Virus record (IMG/VR): IMGVR_UViG_3300008259_000013
Coordinates: 1-64,000 of that record
Strand: one strand, 5' to 3'
DNA from: a virus
Length of the DNA: 64,000 bases
Shown here: in pieces, positions 327 to 60,664 of the stretch
Layout of the letters: each line of letters starts with the position of its first letter
Position numbering within the stretch: position 1 is the stretch's first letter
Translations under genes and position numbers: made by a program
Notes under the pieces: model-generated
What the model was told of the DNA's origin: nothing
Seen by the model: the letters and a program-made list of their open reading frames with translations, nothing else
Database searches by the model: none

Positions 327-464
327 TTAGAAGAAGTAGATTCTTGCAGATAAGAGAAACCCTAATACAAAATAACTTATTGCTATTTCTATTCCTGCGC
401 TCTTTGAGAGAATAAATGAAACAAAAGAAACCCCAAGCATTGCCAAAAAGGAAATGATTTTCAT
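327..464 (-). CDS. Small membrane protein, 45 aa
   Basis: Two hydrophobic stretches (residues 3-19 and 27-40). The start ATG overlaps the upstream stop as ATGA, so translational coupling is likely. Function unknown; it forms a pair with the next small membrane protein. Confidence 0.55.
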   Translation of the reverse strand: MKIISFLAMLGVSFVSFILSKSAGIEIAISYFVLGFLLSARIYFF

Positions 465-589
465 TTTACTTCTGATGCTAGTAGGTCTAGAGCAAAGATT
501 ATTTCATCAAGTATTTCTTTTATTTCAGAATTGTCGATGGAGAGCTTGGCTGATTCTAGGTGATCTTGGGCTATTTCAAGAGCATTCAT
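461..589 (-). CDS. Hypothetical acidic helical protein, 42 aa
   Basis: Begins MNALEIAQDHLESAKLS; amphipathic helical pattern, acidic, no membrane segment. It ends in an ATGA overlap with the next gene and starts 4 nt after the upstream stop. Resembles the small helical proteins at 593-1225 in composition only. Confidence 0.5.
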   Translation of the reverse strand: MNALEIAQDHLESAKLSIDNSEIKEILDEIIFALDLLASEVK

Positions 590-1234: not shown

Positions 1235-1429
1235 TTACTTGTTGAGTGTAGCTGCGTCTTCTTCTTTTAGATAGAAACGATCATCACAAGCATCAGTAGC
1301 CAACATAATGTCACGAAGTGATTGGTCGTTTTCGGCAAGCTCATAGAGAATAGAGAATGATTCGCCGCTGATACCATTCTCATCATTCAACACCGAGATG
1401 ATAAAATTACGCAATAGTTCTTTATTCAT
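1235..1429 (-). CDS. Hypothetical protein, 64 aa
   Basis: Acidic helical protein beginning MNKELLRNFIISVLNDENG. A U-run of the preceding terminator lies directly in front of its ATG, so it may be read by read-through or from a promoter not seen. Not recognised. Confidence 0.65.
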   Translation of the reverse strand: MNKELLRNFIISVLNDENGISGESFSILYELAENDQSLRDIMLATDACDDRFYLKEEDAATLNK

Positions 1430-1432
1430 ATC

Positions 1433-1461
1433 AAAAAAAAGGGGCTTTTGAGCCTGACCCC
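1433..1461 (-). terminator. Intrinsic terminator between small genes
   Basis: On the minus strand a GGCT-CAAA-AGCC hairpin with outer G/C pairs is followed by eight U (1440-1433). The U-run ends 4 nt before the next start codon, so it may act as an attenuator of the left operon. Confidence 0.6.
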
Positions 1462-1473
1462 AAGGCTATTTCA

Positions 1474-1623
1474 TTATTCGCAAACCACAATTTCGCCGTC
1501 GTTGTTTTGTTTCAGGCCCGTGTAGACAAGTATCTGGCCCCCGTTGTCGGTCTCCACTCCACAACCTAGCTTCTGGAGCTTGTTGACCAGTTCGATGACT
1601 TCTCTGATTTGATTTTCTTCCAT
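1474..1623 (-). CDS. Hypothetical protein, 49 aa
   Basis: Begins MEENQIREVIELVNKLQKLG: a short helix followed by a strand-rich half. Fills the gap between the terminator and the 126-aa gene. Not recognised. Confidence 0.55.
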   Translation of the reverse strand: MEENQIREVIELVNKLQKLGCGVETDNGGQILVYTGLKQNNDGEIVVCE

Positions 1624-2055: not shown

Positions 2056-2925
2056 TTATTTATTTTCGAGGGCCGTTCCAGCCCCTGCCAGAGCGGCTTT
2101 GGCAGCGTTTGCCCTGCGGGTCACCCATGCCTTGTGGGCTGCAAGACTCTGCCTGCTGGTCTTCATCTGCTGCACAAGCTCCTCACCGGCTCCCAGATCG
2201 CCTTTGACCTCGGCGGCGGGGGTAACCTCCTGATCGGGCTTCTGAAGCTCGCCTTGGCCCCGCAGGGAAGTCTTGCGCTTCAGGATAGGGTCGTTGGTGA
2301 TGCAAAGGCAGATCATCGGCGCACGGCTGCTGATGTAGGTGTACCGCCAGAGCAGATTTATTTTATTTGAAATGTCTTCAATCTTGGAATTCATTTCATT
2401 CAGGGCATTCCTGAAATAAGTTTCAATTGCCTCTTGGTTGGAAGTTTCCTTTGCCATTTGGTTCAATTCAATTGGCAAATTGTCTTTGATGCGCCAGCCC
2501 AAGGTGAAGGTGAAGATGGCACAAACCCTGTCCCCATCCGCAAACACGTTGTTCAAGAACCTCAAGCACTCCACGCTCGGATTGCCACAAAAATCAAACC
2601 AGAAGAATTTATTGTTATTATTTAGGAGTTTGAGGTGATTCAGGTTCAGCTTGTCGTTTATGTATTTAGTTTTATTATCCTTATTCCTGTCTAGGAGATT
2701 ATTGACAGAATAGGTGCGGAAACTCTTCTCAAAACAAACAAGTTGAAGATCCAAGGGAATCTGCTGAATGCAATTCCTGTAGTCTTGGTAATTCAAAGCA
2801 AAGTTCTCAAATTCCCAGCTTTCTCCCGGCAGGGACAAGACTGAAACGGCATCGGTGAATTCGGCAAAGACTTCAAAGGTCTTCGTCGTCAGGTGGCGCA
2901 GGGCATTTTTACAGTCGTTTTTCAT
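2056..2925 (-). CDS. Hypothetical protein with FDFCGNP motif, 289 aa
   Basis: A central FWFDFCGNPS motif (about residue 110) followed by a strand-helix pattern resembles loops of viral methyltransferase-like proteins, but no SAM-binding glycine motif is seen, so enzyme function is only a guess. The C-terminus is basic and Ala-rich (HKAWVTRRANAAKAALAG), a tail type found at the end of several phage proteins and possibly nucleic-acid binding. The start overlaps a tiny upstream gene (ATGATATGA). Confidence 0.65.
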   Translation of the reverse strand: MKNDCKNALRHLTTKTFEVFAEFTDAVSVLSLPGESWEFENFALNYQDYRNCIQQIPLDLQLVCFEKSFRTYSVNNLLDRNKDNKTKYINDKLNLNHLKLLNNNNKFFWFDFCGNPSVECLRFLNNVFADGDRVCAIFTFTLGWRIKDNLPIELNQMAKETSNQEAIETYFRNALNEMNSKIEDISNKINLLWRYTYISSRAPMICLCITNDPILKRKTSLRGQGELQKPDQEVTPAAEVKGDLGAGEELVQQMKTSRQSLAAHKAWVTRRANAAKAALAGAGTALENK

Positions 2926-14688: not shown

Positions 14689-15246
14689 TTAGTGAATATC
14701 TAGTGTGTCGTGATTAATGTAAAGATTGTCTTTAACAGTAGCTCTGAAAGTTTTGTACCAATTGTCCATGTTGTTTTCTACGCCATAAATATAATTGCCA
14801 TACTTATTGCATCCATACAATGGCAAAGGACCAATCTCTCTAATTTTTTTGATTTCTTTTTTAGCAGGTTGATAAGGTTGACCAGCGACTTTAACTTCTG
14901 GGGTATAGGTCTTTTCAGCTTCTATAAATAGAATAAATAACTCAGCAAAAAACTCAATAGAACTATCCTTTACTGCGTGTTGAGTCTCTCCAAGGAAAAG
15001 TTCATAATAGCCAGAAAAATTACCAGAATAGGCTTCGCTGAATGCATAAAGAGAACAATTATAATTTTGATAAACTCCACTCAATCGAAGCGAATGATGA
15101 ACATCATCAAGGCGAAAGCGAGGTTTGTAGTTCTTGATAGCTACTTCAATAGCTTTTTCTTTTGTACTATAATTAAGACGCAAAGGATCAGGAAGCCTTT
15201 CTTGGTCATAGGCATCGCTGATGCTATAATATTCAAAAGATTGCAT
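14689..15246 (-). CDS. Hypothetical protein, 185 aa, downstream of pseudoknot RNA
   Basis: Soluble, Tyr-rich (GYYELFLGE, YNCSLYAFSEAY); no family recognised. Its 5' region carries the pseudoknot RNA at 15258-15366, followed on the minus strand by a U-tract that ends at the start codon, so expression may be controlled by that RNA. Confidence 0.65.
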   Translation of the reverse strand: MQSFEYYSISDAYDQERLPDPLRLNYSTKEKAIEVAIKNYKPRFRLDDVHHSLRLSGVYQNYNCSLYAFSEAYSGNFSGYYELFLGETQHAVKDSSIEFFAELFILFIEAEKTYTPEVKVAGQPYQPAKKEIKKIREIGPLPLYGCNKYGNYIYGVENNMDNWYKTFRATVKDNLYINHDTLDIH

Positions 15247-15257
15247 AAAAAAGAAAA

Positions 15258-15366
15258 AATTAAGAGAAGGTCTGGCTTTTATGTAGTTACCAGACAGGCG
15301 ATTGAGTAACCAGAGAAAAATGTTAAAAAACTCCGCTACATTGCCTGTATTTTACTTCTCTTAATT
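15258..15366 (-). ncRNA. Pseudoknotted RNA element, copy A
   Basis: Stems: outer 12 bp (15258-15269/15355-15366), P1 CAGGC/GCCTG (15295-15299/15343-15347), P2 TCTGG/CCAGA (15271-15275/15290-15294) and P3 GAGT/ACTC (15304-15307/15330-15333). TGTAG in the P2 loop (15282-15286) can pair with CTACA (15336-15340), forming a pseudoknot. Copy B at 37993-38069 keeps the loop and the CCGCTACA and ACCAGA words while the stem bases change with pairing retained. Minus orientation is preferred because a U-rich tract follows the outer stem only on that strand. Class unknown; riboswitch, ribozyme or protein-binding leader are all possible. Confidence 0.65.
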
Positions 15367-15373
15367 AAAAAGA

Positions 15374-15691
15374 TTATTCGATTGCTACGATGGGAGTCAG
15401 CTTGAACAATTTAATGGAGATGCCGTTATAGTGGTCTTGCTTAATATGCTCTGAATCAATTTCGATAATGCCATCTTCAATTTTAGCGTAATTGAGAGTT
15501 TCGTTTGTGATTTGCACCTCTCCAGAATCCCCATCGACATCAACAAAACAATCCAAACTTTCAGAGTTAAGAGTTATATCTCCTCTATAAACAAGGTGAT
15601 ATACTGGACCGTGAGTGATTTCAATTGCATCAGACGACATAATCTGATTAACAATATTCTGAGCTTTCTTAGTTAGTTTAATTGCAGTCAT
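15374..15691 (-). CDS. Hypothetical protein, 105 aa
   Basis: Strand-rich acidic protein; CFVDVDGDSGEVQI and IKQDHYNGISI. No signal. Not recognised. Confidence 0.65.
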   Translation of the reverse strand: MTAIKLTKKAQNIVNQIMSSDAIEITHGPVYHLVYRGDITLNSESLDCFVDVDGDSGEVQITNETLNYAKIEDGIIEIDSEHIKQDHYNGISIKLFKLTPIVAIE

Positions 15692-17100: not shown

Positions 17101-18024
17101 TTATTTCAGACTTTCCAGATAATTCCTGCCCAATGAAGTAATCTTCCTGCCAGAGACAGTAATTTCCATCAGGTTCAATTTCTGGAGGTAGGTTTCAGCA
17201 TCTCTTTGCAGAGACTGGCGAGACATTTGAGTCTTGGCACTCAAGTTTGTCAAGGTAGTAAGAGATTTTTCAGATAAGATTTTAAGAATCTTTATTTCCA
17301 TTGGGGTAAGCCCCAGAGGATTGATCCCCAACCTTAACTTAAATTCTTGCCAATCTTCCATACTGAATTCTTCTTTATCGACAGAATCAATATAAAGAGT
17401 GATGTTATTAGCCATCTGGGTGGCCTTTCTTGCGTTGCCGCGAAGAACCTTTTTGATTTCCTCTAAGGCCCTTGGGGTTATGGGAACATCAGTATTCTTC
17501 TGTACAATTGCAGCGAGTTCATCATTAGAATATTCTTCTAAATCAATTCGCTCCAGTCTGTCCATCAACGCATGGTGTATTTTGTGAGCTTCAGTAGTAG
17601 CAAACAAGAATGTTATTTTCCTGAAGTCAAATTCTATCGTTGCATCATTATAAAGAAATGTATTTTTATTTTCTTTATTAGGATTCAAGATAGTGAGCAA
17701 AACCGTTTCAACTGGTTTTGGGATTTCGCTGGCTTCGTCAAAGATGATAGTAGATTCTTTACCTATAACATAAGTATCAACTACATCATCAAAGAATGCT
17801 TTGATTGATTTCAAGCTAGAGCAATTGACAAGATAAGCTCTCCTGTTCGCTCCATCTGAATTCACCAATTGCTTGGCATACAAAGTAGCCAGCGTAGTCT
17901 TGCCGCTCCCTCTGGGAGCTACGAAAAGAAGATGAGGAGAAACAAACGTCTTCTTCTGACTCTCTAAATAAAAGGAGAGTCTCTTCTTTATTTTTTCTTG
18001 CCCAATGATTTTATCAAAACTCAT
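17101..18024 (-). CDS. RuvB-like AAA+ ATPase
   Basis: 307 aa. Starts GQEKIKKRLSFYL like RuvB. Walker A at APRGSGKTT (about residue 39), Walker B at IIFDEASEI (about 95), sensor I in FLFATTEAH, Arg-rich MDRLERIDL and a C-terminal winged-helix (EIKILKILSEKSLTTLTNLS, about 240-307). RuvB drives Holliday-junction branch migration; clamp loaders share the fold. Operon with the small protein at 18024, with 1-nt overlap. Likely role in replication or recombination of phage DNA. Confidence 0.8.
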   Translation of the reverse strand: MSFDKIIGQEKIKKRLSFYLESQKKTFVSPHLLFVAPRGSGKTTLATLYAKQLVNSDGANRRAYLVNCSSLKSIKAFFDDVVDTYVIGKESTIIFDEASEIPKPVETVLLTILNPNKENKNTFLYNDATIEFDFRKITFLFATTEAHKIHHALMDRLERIDLEEYSNDELAAIVQKNTDVPITPRALEEIKKVLRGNARKATQMANNITLYIDSVDKEEFSMEDWQEFKLRLGINPLGLTPMEIKILKILSEKSLTTLTNLSAKTQMSRQSLQRDAETYLQKLNLMEITVSGRKITSLGRNYLESLK

Positions 18025-21040: not shown

Positions 21041-21068
21041 ATTATGGCTGGGTTTGGACGAGAGTCAA
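21041..21068 (-). promoter_or_regulatory. Sigma70-like promoter of rIIB
   Basis: TTGACT (21063-21068), 16-bp spacer, CATAAT (21041-21046). Predicted transcription start lies within about 8 nt of the ATG. The promoter lies over the rIIA stop region. Confidence 0.75.
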
Positions 21069-23228
21069 GGCTTTTTCTTCAAGCTCAAGGTACTTTTGCA
21101 CGATTTTTGGTCCTTTGATTTCGTACCAGTCAACGGCTTTGAAAATTTCGTATTTATTGAAAATACTTTCAATTTCTCTCTTTAGGTCGTGAGTAGGCTT
21201 CAAGCCGCCGCAAACGGTATCCTTGAAACCAGCGCGATTGAATACGTCAATCAAATTATCAGAAGTATCTTTATCAAGATATCCGTTCTTCTTAAACAGA
21301 TAAAAAGACTTAACAAGATCTTGGAACTTGGTAATAGCGGGAATGTTTTTGATATTAATCATGTATTCCCATTGTATGCGATAATCCTTCAAGAAACCTT
21401 GAAGGTGAATATAATTTGCAATTTTCTGGCATTGCCCGTCAGTCCAGTTTTTAGAAATATAATCTTTAACATAAGACTCAAGGCTTTGCCAGTTCTTACT
21501 CTTGGAGGCTTTCTCTGCGGTCTCGGTCTTGAAACAAGCAATTTCAGGGTAGGTGATCTCAAAACCCTTCTCTGAATAATTCAGCAGTTTAATGAATTTT
21601 GAAGGTTCAGTAAGGCAATCAAGGTCAGCAGGATCAAAGAATCGCTTACAATGGAAACGATTGATATGAATGTAAACCCCTCCTTGGTTGAAGTCAAATG
21701 AAGCCTCAGAGAATTGATCACTCTTAACTTTATACCAAGAGTTGGTGGCTTGAAGATTCAACTTAAACTCGTTGATAGAATGCTTGGTATCCCGAATAGC
21801 AGGAGAAGAACCATTAGCGTTCTTGGGGTAAATAATCTTATTAATCTTCTCGCTTGAGGCGAGAGGAATCTCGGACTCCGCCATGCCAACGTCATTGAAC
21901 CAGTCCTTCTTGGCTTGCTCGCTCAAGAACTGAATGACGTAAATAGTAGAAATCCCAGTTTGCCTGTCGTCAAAGACATAATGAGCCAAACGCTGCATGA
22001 ATTTATGATGAGTATCATCAACATACAACCTGCACCAAGAATAGCAGCGAATAGTCTTATTATCGACAATCCGAGAGATTACCCGATCTGACCTCTTACT
22101 CTTAACAATTTCAAAAAGCCTAAAGCCCTTATGGACGTTAGCGGAAGCAGAAATATAATCATTATCAATTTTGATATTGTTCCAAGTGATAGTAGAAAAC
22201 TGCTTTTGGAAACGATAGAAATCACCATGAGCAGAAGTCAAACTATTATAAATGCTTTTGGCCTCGAAAAGACTTTTAGCATTTGTAATCATTCCTTTGA
22301 TCTTCGCGCCAACTTCATCCTTGATGGCTTGGAAACGCTTCCTGATTGCGTTCTGGGTAGTAGTGGAAAACTGCAAGGACTCTCGACTCGCAGAAACCTC
22401 AAGCTCTCCGATATTGAATTCCACAATGAAATCAGAGTGGAAAACGGAGGGAAGGTTATCAACTGAACTGCCATCCAGAGGATACGCAACATTTCCCATG
22501 ATCATCAGGGAAGGAGTCTTGTCCCAAGAATTGCGAGACTTCAAAAACTGCCAGCCTTCGCCACAAAGAACTAGGTCGTTAGTCTTCCAGTAAGTATCCA
22601 AGAAAGACTGTTCAATGTTTGCAATTTGAGGCTTGTTCTTGAAATACTTGAAGAAAGTAGCAATAGTTTCTTTGAAAGTGTGAATATCCCGAATCCTAAC
22701 AGGAATCATAATCTCAACACCATCAGGCTCAGAAGTAGCCTCCTCAGACATCTTGAGTATCTGGCCGATCTTGGTTTCATCCAAGAAAGCGTTGTAGGTA
22801 TAGAGAGTCCCCTGATGAAAACTCCTGATTACGAAATTATCGCCATAAGCGAAACCAGACTTGGAGCCAAGGCCAAGCTGACCAATCAGAGCATTACTGT
22901 TGCGCTTGGTTGACTCTCCGTAAAAGGCGTAAACGTCAGCAATCTCTTCAGGGGACAGACCAAGGCCAAAATCACGCACCTTGAAGGAGGGATCGTCCAA
23001 GGTGGGACAGGTCACAATGAACTGCTTGTCTGAATTGCCAGCTTCGACTTGAGCGTCATAGGCATTGCAAGAGTATTCTCGGATGACTGCGAGAATCTTG
23101 TTTGAGTAGAGTTGGTTGCGAAGGACGTTGAAAATGTGGGCGAGACCCTCTTTCTTGATTCCGAAAGAGATACCATCATTTTCTATGCCAGACTTGCGGA
23201 CGGTGTAAGGTTTTTCCAGAGCGATCAT
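21042..23228 (-). CDS. rIIA: rIIA-like GHKL ATPase
   Basis: 728 aa, matching T4 rIIA in size. GHKL ATP-binding motifs at the N-terminus: REYSCNAYDAQ (N box, about residue 48), VRDFGLGLSPEEI (G1, about 85) and IGQLGLGSKSGF (G2, about 117). A transducer-like domain with EVSASRESLQF follows, then a long C-terminal region without recognised motif. Partner of rIIB. Preceded by its own promoter with a leader of about 30 nt. Confidence 0.85.
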   Translation of the reverse strand: MIALEKPYTVRKSGIENDGISFGIKKEGLAHIFNVLRNQLYSNKILAVIREYSCNAYDAQVEAGNSDKQFIVTCPTLDDPSFKVRDFGLGLSPEEIADVYAFYGESTKRNSNALIGQLGLGSKSGFAYGDNFVIRSFHQGTLYTYNAFLDETKIGQILKMSEEATSEPDGVEIMIPVRIRDIHTFKETIATFFKYFKNKPQIANIEQSFLDTYWKTNDLVLCGEGWQFLKSRNSWDKTPSLMIMGNVAYPLDGSSVDNLPSVFHSDFIVEFNIGELEVSASRESLQFSTTTQNAIRKRFQAIKDEVGAKIKGMITNAKSLFEAKSIYNSLTSAHGDFYRFQKQFSTITWNNIKIDNDYISASANVHKGFRLFEIVKSKRSDRVISRIVDNKTIRCYSWCRLYVDDTHHKFMQRLAHYVFDDRQTGISTIYVIQFLSEQAKKDWFNDVGMAESEIPLASSEKINKIIYPKNANGSSPAIRDTKHSINEFKLNLQATNSWYKVKSDQFSEASFDFNQGGVYIHINRFHCKRFFDPADLDCLTEPSKFIKLLNYSEKGFEITYPEIACFKTETAEKASKSKNWQSLESYVKDYISKNWTDGQCQKIANYIHLQGFLKDYRIQWEYMINIKNIPAITKFQDLVKSFYLFKKNGYLDKDTSDNLIDVFNRAGFKDTVCGGLKPTHDLKREIESIFNKYEIFKAVDWYEIKGPKIVQKYLELEEKALTLVQTQP

Positions 23229-37189: not shown

Positions 37190-37771
37190 ATGAATATAGT
37201 TCAAATAGGGTGCAACGATTGCAATGACGAAGTTTATAATTTTATAGTTGAAAATTCAGATCAAATAAACAATTTTTTTGCAATTGACGCTTTGCCAAAT
37301 GCAGCTATAACAGCCAAAAATAAATATAATTTTCTAGAAAAAAAACTAAATGTTATTAACTGCGCAGTTGGACTATCAAATGGTCTAATTTCTTTTTACT
37401 ATCCTCAAGATAGCGATATGAGCGAACACGCTTCTTTAAGCATAGACCATTTACAGTGTCATGGGCATCAATTTCACACTAAAATTATTGTTCCTATTAT
37501 AGAAATCAATACGTTGCTATCGAGTATAACAAAAGAAATAGGCAAAATAAATAAATTTTATATTGATACCGAAGGTTTTGATGTCCCGATTTTATTACAA
37601 ATGGACTTAAATAAGTATACTCCAGACTATCTTGAATTTGAATATATTCATTCAGATGGGCCAAAAACAATAGGACCAAATTTAAATAATTTACTTGCAA
37701 AGTTACAAAATAAGTATAATTCAATTGAATTAAGCGGACACTATAATGTAATTGCTCAATCATTGAAGTAA
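37190..37771 (+). CDS. FkbM-like methyltransferase in tRNA cluster
   Basis: 193 aa. Short SAM-binding start (IVQIGCNDCNDEVYNFI), then FFAIDALPN, SDMSEHASLS and the typical FkbM end FYIDTEGFDVPILLQMD (about residues 123-139). FkbM-type enzymes O-methylate sugars or small molecules. It is on the opposite strand to all flanking tRNAs, which suggests insertion. The leader is A/T-rich without an AGTGTAAW motif. Confidence 0.7.
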   Translation: MNIVQIGCNDCNDEVYNFIVENSDQINNFFAIDALPNAAITAKNKYNFLEKKLNVINCAVGLSNGLISFYYPQDSDMSEHASLSIDHLQCHGHQFHTKIIVPIIEINTLLSSITKEIGKINKFYIDTEGFDVPILLQMDLNKYTPDYLEFEYIHSDGPKTIGPNLNNLLAKLQNKYNSIELSGHYNVIAQSLK

Positions 37772-37971: not shown

Positions 37972-37992
37972 ACTAAATTTTAAAAAGAACTT

Positions 37993-38069
37993 TCTTGTTT
38001 TATGTAGTTACAAGATGGGTGTGAAAACTTGACCAGAATCAATAGACCAAGATCCCGCTACAATACCCT
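37993..38069 (-). ncRNA. Pseudoknotted RNA element, copy B
   Basis: P2 TCTTG/CAAGA (37993-37997/38011-38015), P1 GGGT/ACCC (38017-38020/38065-38068) and P3 CTTG/CAAG (38028-38031/38048-38051). The P2-loop TGTAG (38003-38007) pairs with CTACA (38058-38062). It shares with copy A the loop TTTTATGTAGTTA, CCGCTACA and ACCAGA. No outer stem here. Lies between tRNA-Lys and tRNA-Met, so it is probably co-transcribed with the tRNAs. Confidence 0.65.
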
Positions 38070-38114
38070 ATAATATCATTGCAAAAACAGTTTGCAACTA
38101 ATTATAAATTAATT

Positions 38115-57301: not shown

Positions 57302-60300
57302 ATGAATATTTTATGCCACGCCACTTATGTAGGAGACACTGGCTACAACGCACACAGTAAAAATTTTTTTCGTAATTTCGCAGCTCATCATAATATAAAA
57401 ATTAGAAATTTTACAGTCGGAAAGGATTGGAGGGGTTTGCATAATACGCCTACTCATTGTCATGGCAGAGACGTAACTGAGTTTGATAAAAAACTGCTGT
57501 GCCTTCAAACGCTCTGGAATGGAGAAGGAAAACTGGAAGACTACGAATTATATGGATTTAAAAAAGGAAGCTTTGAATATGATTTAAACATAATTCTTGC
57601 AGAAGCGAATCATTATTATTTTTATCACGACTATAAAGGCCCAAAAATAGCATATACAGTTTGGGAAACCACTAAATATCATCAGCAATTTTTTGACAAA
57701 CTTAAAGAATTTGATCAGGTTTGGGTGCCAACCCAATGGCAAGCAGACATCACTGTAAAACAAGGTATTGAAAGAAGCAAGGTTAAAGTCGTGCCGGAAG
57801 GCGTAGACTCTAAAGTTTTTTATCCTGAAACATATAAAATAGCTGGTAATAAATTTAGATTTTTAATTTTCGGGAGATGGGACGCAAGAAAAAGCACTAT
57901 CGAATTAATAAGATGCTTTAAAGAGTTGTTCGGAAACAATCCTAAAGTTGAATTAATTATTTCTGTAGAAGACAAGTTTAATATTGACGGATTGGGATCT
58001 ACAAAAAATAGGCTAAATAAATATGACTTAATGTGCGATAATATTCGTATAATCAATTTCCCAGAAAAACAAGATTATGCAAAATTCTTAAAGGCTGGCC
58101 ATGTATTTTTATCATGTTCTAGATCAGAGGGTTGGAACTTGCCCCTTATTGAAGCTATGGCTTGCGGTACGCCTAGCATTTATTCAGATTGCAGCGGGCA
58201 GTTGCAATACGCTAAAGGTAAAGGCATACCAGTAAAAATAAAAGGAGAAATTGATGTTTCTAAATTTTATCCTCCATCAGAGCCGTGCTCAGGAAATTGG
58301 TATGACCCAGATTTCGACGATTTAAAAGAAAAGATGCTTGAGGTCTATAACAATTATGATTTTTATAAAAACAAAGCTGTAAAAGAATCAAAAGAAATAA
58401 GAGAAAATTTTTCTTGGGAAAAATCTGCCAAAATAGCAGCCGATTTAATAGAAGAGAGTTACGGGTCTATAATAGAAAATCTAAAAAAGACTCATCCTGA
58501 AACATATAAAGAAATTTTTACTAATAATACTTATGAAAATTTTGTATCTGTAGAAGAAAATGACTCTGTTCTAGATTTGGGGTGTTCTCAAGGATTTTTT
58601 TATCTTAAACATAGAAGCAAACAAATCAAATACATTGGAGTAGACGCTAGCGTAGAATGCATAAAAGAATTTTATAAAAATCTTGCCCCGTCAGACAGCC
58701 CGACCCTGATAAACGCGTATGTTTCAGAAGAAAAAACAGCTTCTTTCGTAAAGCCGTTTTTTCATAATACAGATGAAAAATTAACTTCTCATATTTCTTT
58801 TAAAAATTTGTCATCTTTGTTTAGTGACAAAATAAATTTTTTAAAATTTGACATAGAAGGAGCAGAAAAGTTTTTGTTTGGGCTGCCGGAAAATATAAAT
58901 TTAATAAAAGAAAAGGTCCGAAAGTTTTCTGGAGAATTTCATTTTAAAAGCTCTTTATTTGAAAAAGAGCACGCTCTTGAAATAATAAGAAGATTGCAAG
59001 CGGATAATGATTTTTATATTAAATTGTACAGCTCAGATGGGGTTGATATAGACAAGGTGTTTTGGTCAAAAACAGATTATTATACTGAGATAATCGTTTC
59101 GGGATTAGTAAGAAAAAATTCAAATTTTAAAAATTTACGTTTTATTCCAAATAACTCTCACGACCCAGAGGCTTATCATATAATCAACGAATCTCCTTCG
59201 ATTGGAGACATAATCGCTTGGGTGCCTATGGTTGATAAATTTCAAAAAGAGAAAAATAAAAAAGTAAACCTTTACACACCATACGCAGAGCTTTTCCAAT
59301 CTTCTTATCCTAACATTAATTTTGATTACTATAATAATCAACCAACTCAGGGAGATAATATTATACGTATAGGAACTTATGATGTAGGGGGTAAAAAATG
59401 GAGTGAGTATAACTTACAAGAGCTTGTAGCTAAAATTTTAGGAATAGAATATAAAGAAACAAGACCAAAGATATCTTTGCCATCAAATCTGAAAAATAAT
59501 TTTAAGAAAAAATATGTTTGCATAGCCACGCACTCAACAGCTCAATTTAAATATTGGAATAACCCAGAAGGATGGTCTAAAACTATAGATTATTTAAAGT
59601 CTCTTGGCTACGATGTTGTTTGCATAGATAAAAATCCTGTTTATGGAGTAGACGGATCAATGAATCAAATACCATCAAACTGCATAGATAAAACAGGAGA
59701 TCTGCCATTTCAAGAAAGAATAAATGATATTTTCCATTGCGATTTTTTTATTGGTCTTACTTCTGGTTTGTCTTGGTTGGCTTGGGGGATAGGCAAGCCA
59801 GTGGTATTTATTTCTGGTATCTCTTTACCAAGAACAGATTTTACTACTCCTTATAGAGTAACAAACACAAGCAAAGATGTTTGCCATGGATGCGCCTCTG
59901 AGCCAGACTTTGTTTTCGATAAGTTCAATTGGAACTTTTGTCCTAAAAATAAAAATTTCCAATGCACTAAAGAAATAACGTTTGAAATGGTTAAAGAAAA
60001 AATAGACTTGTTGATGGTAAGAGAAAATTTTGATCATGATTTTTCATTAGTAAATGCTGGAGTAACATTCAAAGACCACGCATCGATATCTTTAAATGAT
60101 TTTACTTATAAAAGATATTTAATGCAGCTTTTTGTGTATCATTCGGGCGAATGGGTTATTTATCATGAAGAATCCAACTTCGGGCCCACAAGCTGGTTTA
60201 AATGCCATGAATCGAAGAGAAGAAAATGGAGATTTAAATTGTATGGTTTTGAAGGAGATAATGTAAGATTGCTTTTACAAAAAACTTATGATGAAAAAAA

Positions 60301-60664
60301 CAAAAATATAGAATTTATTTTTGATTCTGAAGGCTATAAGTATGACAAAGCGTATTTCCAAAAAGCCTTGTCTTTCGAAGAACAAAATAAGTGCAAAGTT
60401 TTTATAAAAAGTAAATTTTATCAAAAGCTTAAGAAAGAATTTCCTGACTTTCCAAGAATATTTAGCAAAGACGAAAATCTTGAAGACATGTACGCTTCAT
60501 ATAAAATAAAAAGACATGAAATTGAAACTAAAAGAAAAAACGTTTGGTATACAAATAAACTTTGGGTTAATCAAGCTAGATCAGATATAACTTTTGACCA
60601 TCACGAAAACTGGGTCGAGTATCCACAAGAACAAGTTTTTGAAGACATTATAAACTATGAGTAA
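57302..60664 (+). CDS. Multidomain GT4 - FkbM - TibC-like heptosyltransferase
   Basis: 1120 aa, four parts. Residues 1-395: GT4 glycosyltransferase with SRSEGWNLPLIEAMACGTPS (about 272-291). 415-600: FkbM methyltransferase with DLGCSQGFFYL (about 424) and KFDIEGAEKFLFG (about 514). 640-905: GT9-type domain close to autotransporter O-heptosyltransferases (TibC/Aah): HSTAQFKYW (about 742), GLTSGLSWLAWGIGKPVVF (about 815) and a four-Cys cluster CHGC...CP...C (about 860-888) that binds iron in TibC. 930-1120: unrecognised. Likely decorates a protein or glycan of the virion or host surface. No late motif in front; an AT-rich leader. Confidence 0.75.
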   Translation: MNILCHATYVGDTGYNAHSKNFFRNFAAHHNIKIRNFTVGKDWRGLHNTPTHCHGRDVTEFDKKLLCLQTLWNGEGKLEDYELYGFKKGSFEYDLNIILAEANHYYFYHDYKGPKIAYTVWETTKYHQQFFDKLKEFDQVWVPTQWQADITVKQGIERSKVKVVPEGVDSKVFYPETYKIAGNKFRFLIFGRWDARKSTIELIRCFKELFGNNPKVELIISVEDKFNIDGLGSTKNRLNKYDLMCDNIRIINFPEKQDYAKFLKAGHVFLSCSRSEGWNLPLIEAMACGTPSIYSDCSGQLQYAKGKGIPVKIKGEIDVSKFYPPSEPCSGNWYDPDFDDLKEKMLEVYNNYDFYKNKAVKESKEIRENFSWEKSAKIAADLIEESYGSIIENLKKTHPETYKEIFTNNTYENFVSVEENDSVLDLGCSQGFFYLKHRSKQIKYIGVDASVECIKEFYKNLAPSDSPTLINAYVSEEKTASFVKPFFHNTDEKLTSHISFKNLSSLFSDKINFLKFDIEGAEKFLFGLPENINLIKEKVRKFSGEFHFKSSLFEKEHALEIIRRLQADNDFYIKLYSSDGVDIDKVFWSKTDYYTEIIVSGLVRKNSNFKNLRFIPNNSHDPEAYHIINESPSIGDIIAWVPMVDKFQKEKNKKVNLYTPYAELFQSSYPNINFDYYNNQPTQGDNIIRIGTYDVGGKKWSEYNLQELVAKILGIEYKETRPKISLPSNLKNNFKKKYVCIATHSTAQFKYWNNPEGWSKTIDYLKSLGYDVVCIDKNPVYGVDGSMNQIPSNCIDKTGDLPFQERINDIFHCDFFIGLTSGLSWLAWGIGKPVVFISGISLPRTDFTTPYRVTNTSKDVCHGCASEPDFVFDKFNWNFCPKNKNFQCTKEITFEMVKEKIDLLMVRENFDHDFSLVNAGVTFKDHASISLNDFTYKRYLMQLFVYHSGEWVIYHEESNFGPTSWFKCHESKRRKWRFKLYGFEGDNVRLLLQKTYDEKNKNIEFIFDSEGYKYDKAYFQKALSFEEQNKCKVFIKSKFYQKLKKEFPDFPRIFSKDENLEDMYASYKIKRHEIETKRKNVWYTNKLWVNQARSDITFDHHENWVEYPQEQVFEDIINYE

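Follow-up and report, generated by a model that had tools for sequence, protein, structure and literature searches.

Comparable RNAs have proved to be ribozymes, RNA polymerase modifiers or tools of host takeover. In the pistol ribozyme a hairpin loop pairs with an internal strand, ToxI units are tandem repeats of ~36 nt upstream of a toxin gene, and the stable RNAs of the T4 RNA C and D type lie among the tRNA genes of T4-like phages. The put RNA of HK022, which has two copies in that genome, is ~70 nt long, folds into two stem-loops and acts without a protein (PMC9378689), and theta ribozymes associated with tRNAs begin no more than 5 nt from the 3' end of a tRNA, tRNA-Met being among those concerned (PMC10879173).

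The RNA described here has likenesses to all of these. Like HK022 put, it is a phage RNA of similar size with a conserved sequence and fold, and in part of its clusters a terminator follows (PMC9378689). However, put is found downstream of early promoters and has no such pseudoknot, whereas the present RNA is decoupled from terminators and lies beside unrelated genes, the end of an operon included. With theta and HDV-like ribozymes it has in common that it is a small, pseudoknotted phage RNA with a similar order of core strands, sometimes beside tRNA genes, but it occurs at varying distance from the tRNA and on either side of it, and has no HDV-family match in Rfam. The pairing between loop and strand resembles that of pistol, and pistol, hatchet, twister and twister-sister ribozymes share its phage or metagenome contexts (PMC10085705); as these four are generally described, their order of parts and conserved bases are different, and none gives an Rfam match. 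Type III antitoxin RNAs (ToxI, CptI, TenpI) are likewise phage-linked pseudoknots, and tandem copies of the present RNA occur in two phages, but it is usually a single unit of ~78 nt, and among the protein clusters around the copies none is shared across lineages. By description, one copy sits in a tRNA cluster of the kind that holds T4 RNAs C and D, although in most phages the RNA lies away from tRNAs.

Fold and covariation of the RNA

The 64-kb window, i.e. the whole stretch of viral DNA analysed here, contains two copies (A and B) of one structured RNA family, both on the minus strand (Table 1). A pair of pseudoknotted RNAs at these sites had been proposed in the initial annotation, and both are recovered by a held-out covariance model (R2) that was built from 49 copies beside a phage DNA polymerase gene and includes no sequence from the window. 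R2 scores 63.7 bits for copy A (E 1.8e-13) and 51.8 bits for copy B (E 1.3e-10) in the window, the next best match reaching 13.0; the calibration was short and the E-values are rough, but the gap in bits is decisive. A covariance model search of the full 174.5-kb phage record yields exactly these two copies. Copy A sits between two minus-strand ORFs, and copy B within a tRNA cluster, just upstream of a tRNA(CAU) gene. Judging by its RIIA gene, its clamp-loader gene and its ten tRNAs, the record probably belongs to a distant T4-like phage. The RIIA-like and DNA polymerase clamp-loader proteins are encoded at 21042-23228 (-) and 17101-18024 (-) of the window. Also present are a 193-aa ORF resembling phrog_8156 (methyltransferase) at 37190-37771 (+), within the tRNA cluster but opposite in strand to its minus-strand genes, and a 1120-aa protein with glycosyltransferase and methyltransferase matches at 57302-60664 (+).

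Table 1 Features of the two RNA copies and their surroundings (window coordinates)
Feature	Position	Strand	Evidence or remark
RNA copy A, family core, model positions 1-78	15266..15349	-	R1 72.9 bits, held-out R2 63.7 bits
Copy A outer stem P0, 3' strand CUUCUCUUAAUU	15258..15269	-	12-bp perfect complement of 15355-15366
Copy A outer stem P0, 5' strand AAUUAAGAGAAG	15355..15366	-	complement of 15258-15269
Copy A P1 5' strand CAGGC	15343..15347	-	covarying helix 1
Copy A P1 3' strand GCCUG	15295..15299	-	covarying helix 1
Copy A pseudoknot strand 1 UGUAG	15336..15340	-	covarying helix 2
Copy A pseudoknot strand 2 CUACA, inside P2 loop	15282..15286	-	covarying helix 2
Copy A P3 5' strand GAG	15331..15333	-	covarying helix 3
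Copy A P3 3' strand CUC	15313..15315	-	covarying helix 3; runs into conserved CUGGU (15309-15313)
Copy A P2 hairpin UCUGG-UAACUACAUAAAAG-CCAGA	15271..15294	-	covarying helix 4
RNA copy B, family core	37988..38071	-	R1 60.6 bits, held-out R2 51.8 bits
Copy B P1 5' strand GGGU, partner ACCC 38017-38020	38065..38068	-	sequence and covarying helix
Copy B pseudoknot strand 1 UGUAG	38058..38062	-	complementary pseudoknot strands
Copy B pseudoknot strand 2 CUACA	38003..38007	-	complementary pseudoknot strands
Copy B P3 hairpin GGAUC...GAUUC	38036..38055	-	sequence and model match
Copy B P2 hairpin UCUUG-UAACUACAUAAAA-CAAGA	37993..38015	-	sequence and model match
tRNA (CAU) directly downstream of copy B, 26 nt past AUAAAA	37896..37971	-	
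185-aa ORF downstream of copy A	14689..15246	-	no PHROGs or Pfam match
105-aa ORF upstream of copy A	15374..15691	-	no PHROGs or Pfam match

The core of the RNA is ~78 nt long and has a fixed fold of P1, P3, the P2 hairpin and a 5-bp pseudoknot formed by the P2 loop and the strand that links P1 to P3. On the minus strand, the order in both copies is P1 5' strand, PK1, CGG, P3, CUGGUYA..., P1 3' strand and P2 hairpin, with PK2 inside a P2 loop UAAC(..)CAUAAAA. Across the family, P1 (4-5 bp) is followed by A-U-U or A-A-U, PK1 (5 nt), CG and P3, and then by UGGUYA plus 8-10 nt, the P1 3' strand and the P2 hairpin (5-7 bp), the loop of which is UAAC-PK2-UAAAA(G). The P3 hairpin varies in length but begins with G and finishes with C. 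Nearly all hits having the P2 stem also have complementary pseudoknot strands, in variants such as UGUAG/CUACA, UGUGG/CCACA, UGCGG/CCGCA, UGCAG/CUGCA and UGAUG/CAUCA. Of the stems named in the initial annotation, P1 and P2 were paired correctly, whereas in its P3 (GAGT/ACTC and CTTG/CAAG) the wrong strand was paired; the true P3 is a hairpin from the last G of GCGG to the C of CUGGU (GAG/CUC in copy A, GGAUC/GAUUC in copy B). The word ACCAGA is indeed kept, as had been noted, but is the reverse complement of the conserved joining strand UCUGGU. No strand had been assigned before; when both were compared, the RNA fell on the minus strand, because the G-U pairs frequent in P1 and the pseudoknot (e.g. 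U-G in 27/47 at pair 7-102, G-U in 17/47 at pair 14-116) would be A.C mismatches on the plus strand.

Homologues are numerous in viral contigs, as a search of the kind initially proposed reveals. The strict pattern UGUAGCGG...UAACUACAUAAAA matches in at least 66 viral contigs and a looser one, in which two positions of pseudoknot strand 2, and strand 1 as far as its last G, were unconstrained, in more than 119. Model R1 was built from a 69-sequence alignment whose members were picked for complementary pseudoknot strands, and its pseudoknot pairing is therefore by construction. In total, the family has at least 315 copies in at least 311 viral loci, making at least 104 distinct clusters at ≤88% similarity. 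For an unbiased set, 80 loci were gathered by their DNA polymerase protein alone and not by the RNA, and R1 detects the RNA ahead of the polymerase gene in 74. Lineage counts here are informal, and gene calls are simple ORF picks, some of the small ORFs being spurious.

In the 49 copies beside DNA polymerase genes, the stored fold with its pseudoknot is 91.0% paired, and the covariation score of 0.563 compares with 0.173 for shuffled alignments and at most 0.155 for slid partners. This alignment was fitted to a model of P1, P2 and P3, so that the counts for those helices lean towards the model; the pseudoknot was absent from it, and in these copies, which were not chosen by RNA sequence, is 99.1% paired and covarying, with double changes at three of its five pairs. 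All four helices thus covary strongly in the wider alignment relative to shuffled and slid controls, which bears out the earlier claim of selection on RNA structure. A chance resemblance, or an element acting at the level of DNA (a cruciform or a protein site), could be suspected as long as there were just two sequences, given that short stems are easily found; it is refuted by the held-out E-values, by the covariation in excess of both controls and by the free use of G-U pairs, on one strand only.

About 24 bases of the core are near-invariant. When left free in the search pattern, UAAAA was kept in 95/96 copies and CGG in essentially all true copies; rarer variants (CUAGU, CAAC, UAAU) do exist, and the search patterns therefore account for part of the apparent invariance. 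The outer stem P0, which has 12 bp in copy A, is found in only a subset of the family and is not supported as a universal feature; in one phage (L075) its 3' strand CGCUCUAUG contains the next start codon. Hits without CUGGU or P2 (L023, L092, L098, L069 and L070) were judged to be chance matches, and the L023 record and the L069 genome score nothing with the model.

Distribution and genomic setting

Most of 53 matching contigs, contigs of 98-211 kb among them, have one copy of the RNA; the window phage has two, and two other phages have tandem pairs. The carriers span a range from the RIIA-bearing, T4-like window phage (~174 kb) to phages encoding a family-A DNA polymerase. In a 127.7-kb phage contig (L258), a tandem pair ~8 nt apart (1384-1575) lies upstream of a GC-rich hairpin; P3 is very long in the second of these copies. 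Across 84,980 species genomes the strict pattern gave three hits, one of them real and located in a MAG contig; when the model was run on 399 genomes of the phylum of that MAG, 398 were without the RNA and the one match was the MAG itself. For isolate phages, BLASTN with three RNA regions gave no match, and none was found by megablast of one DNA polymerase region or by tblastn of three neighbouring proteins. The window RIIA as a query finds thousands of matches; the search therefore works, and the other carriers of the RNA look to be uncultured phages.

The RNA occurs in 3' UTRs, in intergenic gaps and beside tRNA(CAU) genes, with flanking genes mostly on its own strand. Neighbours differ by lineage (ssb-like, family-A DNA polymerase, HNH endonuclease, FkbM-like and tRNA genes), and among 222 protein clusters around the copies no downstream gene family is common outside single lineages. 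A terminator lies within 140 nt downstream in 24/80 clusters as compared to 14/400 random control stretches, many clusters being without one, and a start codon follows 12-45 nt past AUAAAA in about 30 of the 104 or more clusters. The order in the DNA polymerase lineage is stop codon, ~12 nt, RNA, GC-rich hairpin, 5-30 nt and polymerase ATG. Four members with full upstream sequence (L329, L336, L342 and L343) lack the RNA and keep a U-tract terminator, and several RNA carriers (e.g. L275-L283 and L289) have a hairpin with a poor U-tract; the terminator was accordingly rejected as an obligate partner. In L058, the last minus-strand stop codon is followed by the RNA, a terminator and a convergent 2846-aa gene, and the order in L181 is SSB gene, RNA and tRNA(CAU), with a convergent 2896-aa ORF further downstream. 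Terminator arms, read by eye in the members inspected, do not overlap with P2 or P0. An IRES-like replacement of the Shine-Dalgarno sequence was considered and dropped: RNA-led ORFs are mostly without such motifs, yet the same holds for other genes on the contigs. The 5' arm of the terminator often has (A/U)CUGGUU, like the CUGGUU of the RNA (L083, L085, L101, L107, L110, L116, L117 and L198), either as a clade trait or as an alternative pairing partner. Past the terminator, five loci (L048, L054, L062, L066 and L071) have a conserved, promoter-like UUGAC...CUGUCAGUAU(A/U) that runs straight into the start codon.

In four phage lineages (the window T4-like lineage, L181/L191, L127 and L185) the RNA neighbours a tRNA(CAU) gene at 9-41 nt, either following the tRNA by 17-19 nt or preceding it by 9-41 nt; the majority of copies are distant from any tRNA. 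All tRNAs located 50 nt or less from a copy are tRNA(CAU). These genes differ from each other, and the tRNA of L127 has an initiator-type C1:A72 mismatch. The association is no more than suggestive, as CAU accounts for 9/36 distinct tRNAs across all loci and phage tRNAs commonly have this anticodon.

Possible roles of the RNA

Our preferred reading, held tentatively and with somewhat less than even confidence, is that of a stable, trans-acting phage noncoding RNA. It is favoured because the RNA tracks neither the next gene nor its terminator, is mostly present as a single copy and is placed, in some lineages, in tRNA clusters or at the end of an operon, because its neighbours are unrelated and no downstream gene is shared, because it is decoupled from the terminator in the DNA polymerase lineage, and because CGG and UAAAA are retained even when unconstrained in the search. 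The lack of tracking also disfavours a switch acting in cis, and adjacency to tRNA(CAU) on either side fits a noncoding gene processed out of a tRNA transcript. The RNA would be co-transcribed with whichever gene or tRNA adjoins it and would either remain behind as stable RNA at the mRNA 3' end or be released through tRNA processing; next to tRNAs, its ends would be defined by RNase P and by 3' tRNA processing. With its near-invariant loops, CGG...CUGGUYA and UAAC...CAUAAAA, the RNA might then bind a conserved host target, protein or ribonucleoprotein, in trans, as a small working RNA gene and not as a switch for a neighbour. The start codons and terminators downstream in part of the clusters would suit a cis-acting element too, and a single copy with mixed neighbours is also typical of phage ribozymes.

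The strongest rival acting in cis is antitermination, as the polymerase gene can be reached only through a terminator: the hairpin ends so close to the polymerase ATG that there is no room for a promoter, and transcription must pass. A nascent RNA would bind host RNA polymerase so that the downstream terminator is passed and early genes or tRNAs are transcribed, as with put, which is similar in size and protein-free (PMC9378689), and the excess of terminators after the RNA is far above chance. We nevertheless consider this unlikely, since the four relatives without the RNA keep the terminator while several carriers have a degenerate U-tract, since in L058 nothing lies downstream except a convergent gene, and since put consists of two stem-loops with no such pseudoknot (PMC9378689). 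A riboswitch or protein-binding leader, whose fold, once stabilised by a ligand or phage protein, would alter termination or translation of the next gene, would account for the aptamer-like conservation, for the terminator or start codon close downstream and for the optional P0 that holds the next start codon in some phages, such as L075. It is quite improbable in view of the mixed downstream genes, of copies before tRNAs and at an operon end, and of relatives that keep the terminator without the RNA; moreover, the terminator arms stay clear of P2 and P0, and no mutually exclusive pairing is apparent in the members inspected.

Self-cleavage, by which the pseudoknotted core would cut its own transcript, for example to separate mRNAs or trim tRNA precursors, appears improbable. 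The small size, the near-invariant bases, the pseudoknotted core, the mixed phage contexts and the proximity to tRNA(CAU) in four lineages would all suit a ribozyme, theta ribozymes likewise adjoin tRNAs, often tRNA-Met (PMC10879173), and the strand order P1a, PKa, P3, P1b, PKb is like that of the HDV nested pseudoknot. However, the RNA is without the P3-P1 adjacency of HDV and without its joining strand bearing the catalytic C, its distance from tRNA ends is not constant, as opposed to theta ribozymes, which lie within 5 nt, and no Rfam ribozyme model matches it. Circular permutation of the hammerhead or twister type was looked for with a P3-opened pattern, and all true hits were canonical copies. 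A long shot is that the phage RNA acts in trans on a recogniser of CAU tRNAs, either a translation-initiation component or a defence anticodon nuclease; this is suggested by the near-invariant loop ...CAUAA..., which resembles the anticodon loop of tRNA(CAU), and by the identity of all tRNAs close to copies in the four lineages. The CAU of the loop partly pairs in cis with (A/U/C)UG. Given the model, the consensus and hundreds of copies, each of these hypotheses is testable on a transcript of ~80 nt.

Relation to catalogued RNAs

The initial annotation could match the RNA to no known class, and this holds: in comparisons with Rfam 15, no hit overlaps the RNA core above noise in the window, in copy A alone and 12 member loci (E ≤ 10) or in 10 member loci at the gathering threshold, and a total of 94 kb of member loci contains no ribozyme that the Rfam models recognise. 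A literature search, mostly of sources outside subscription journals and bioRxiv, found no description of it. The RNA is thus a previously uncatalogued family, new at the level of the RNA family: a well-supported structured RNA that is missing from Rfam, widespread in uncultured phages and nearly invariant in its core. At one of the loci (L167), RF04354 'Plastid-ycf2' gives matches under its gathering score to the antisense strand of phage tRNA genes, at 1411-1484 (+), 455-528 (+) and 2722-2793 (+), and that family may be partly modelled on antisense tRNA.
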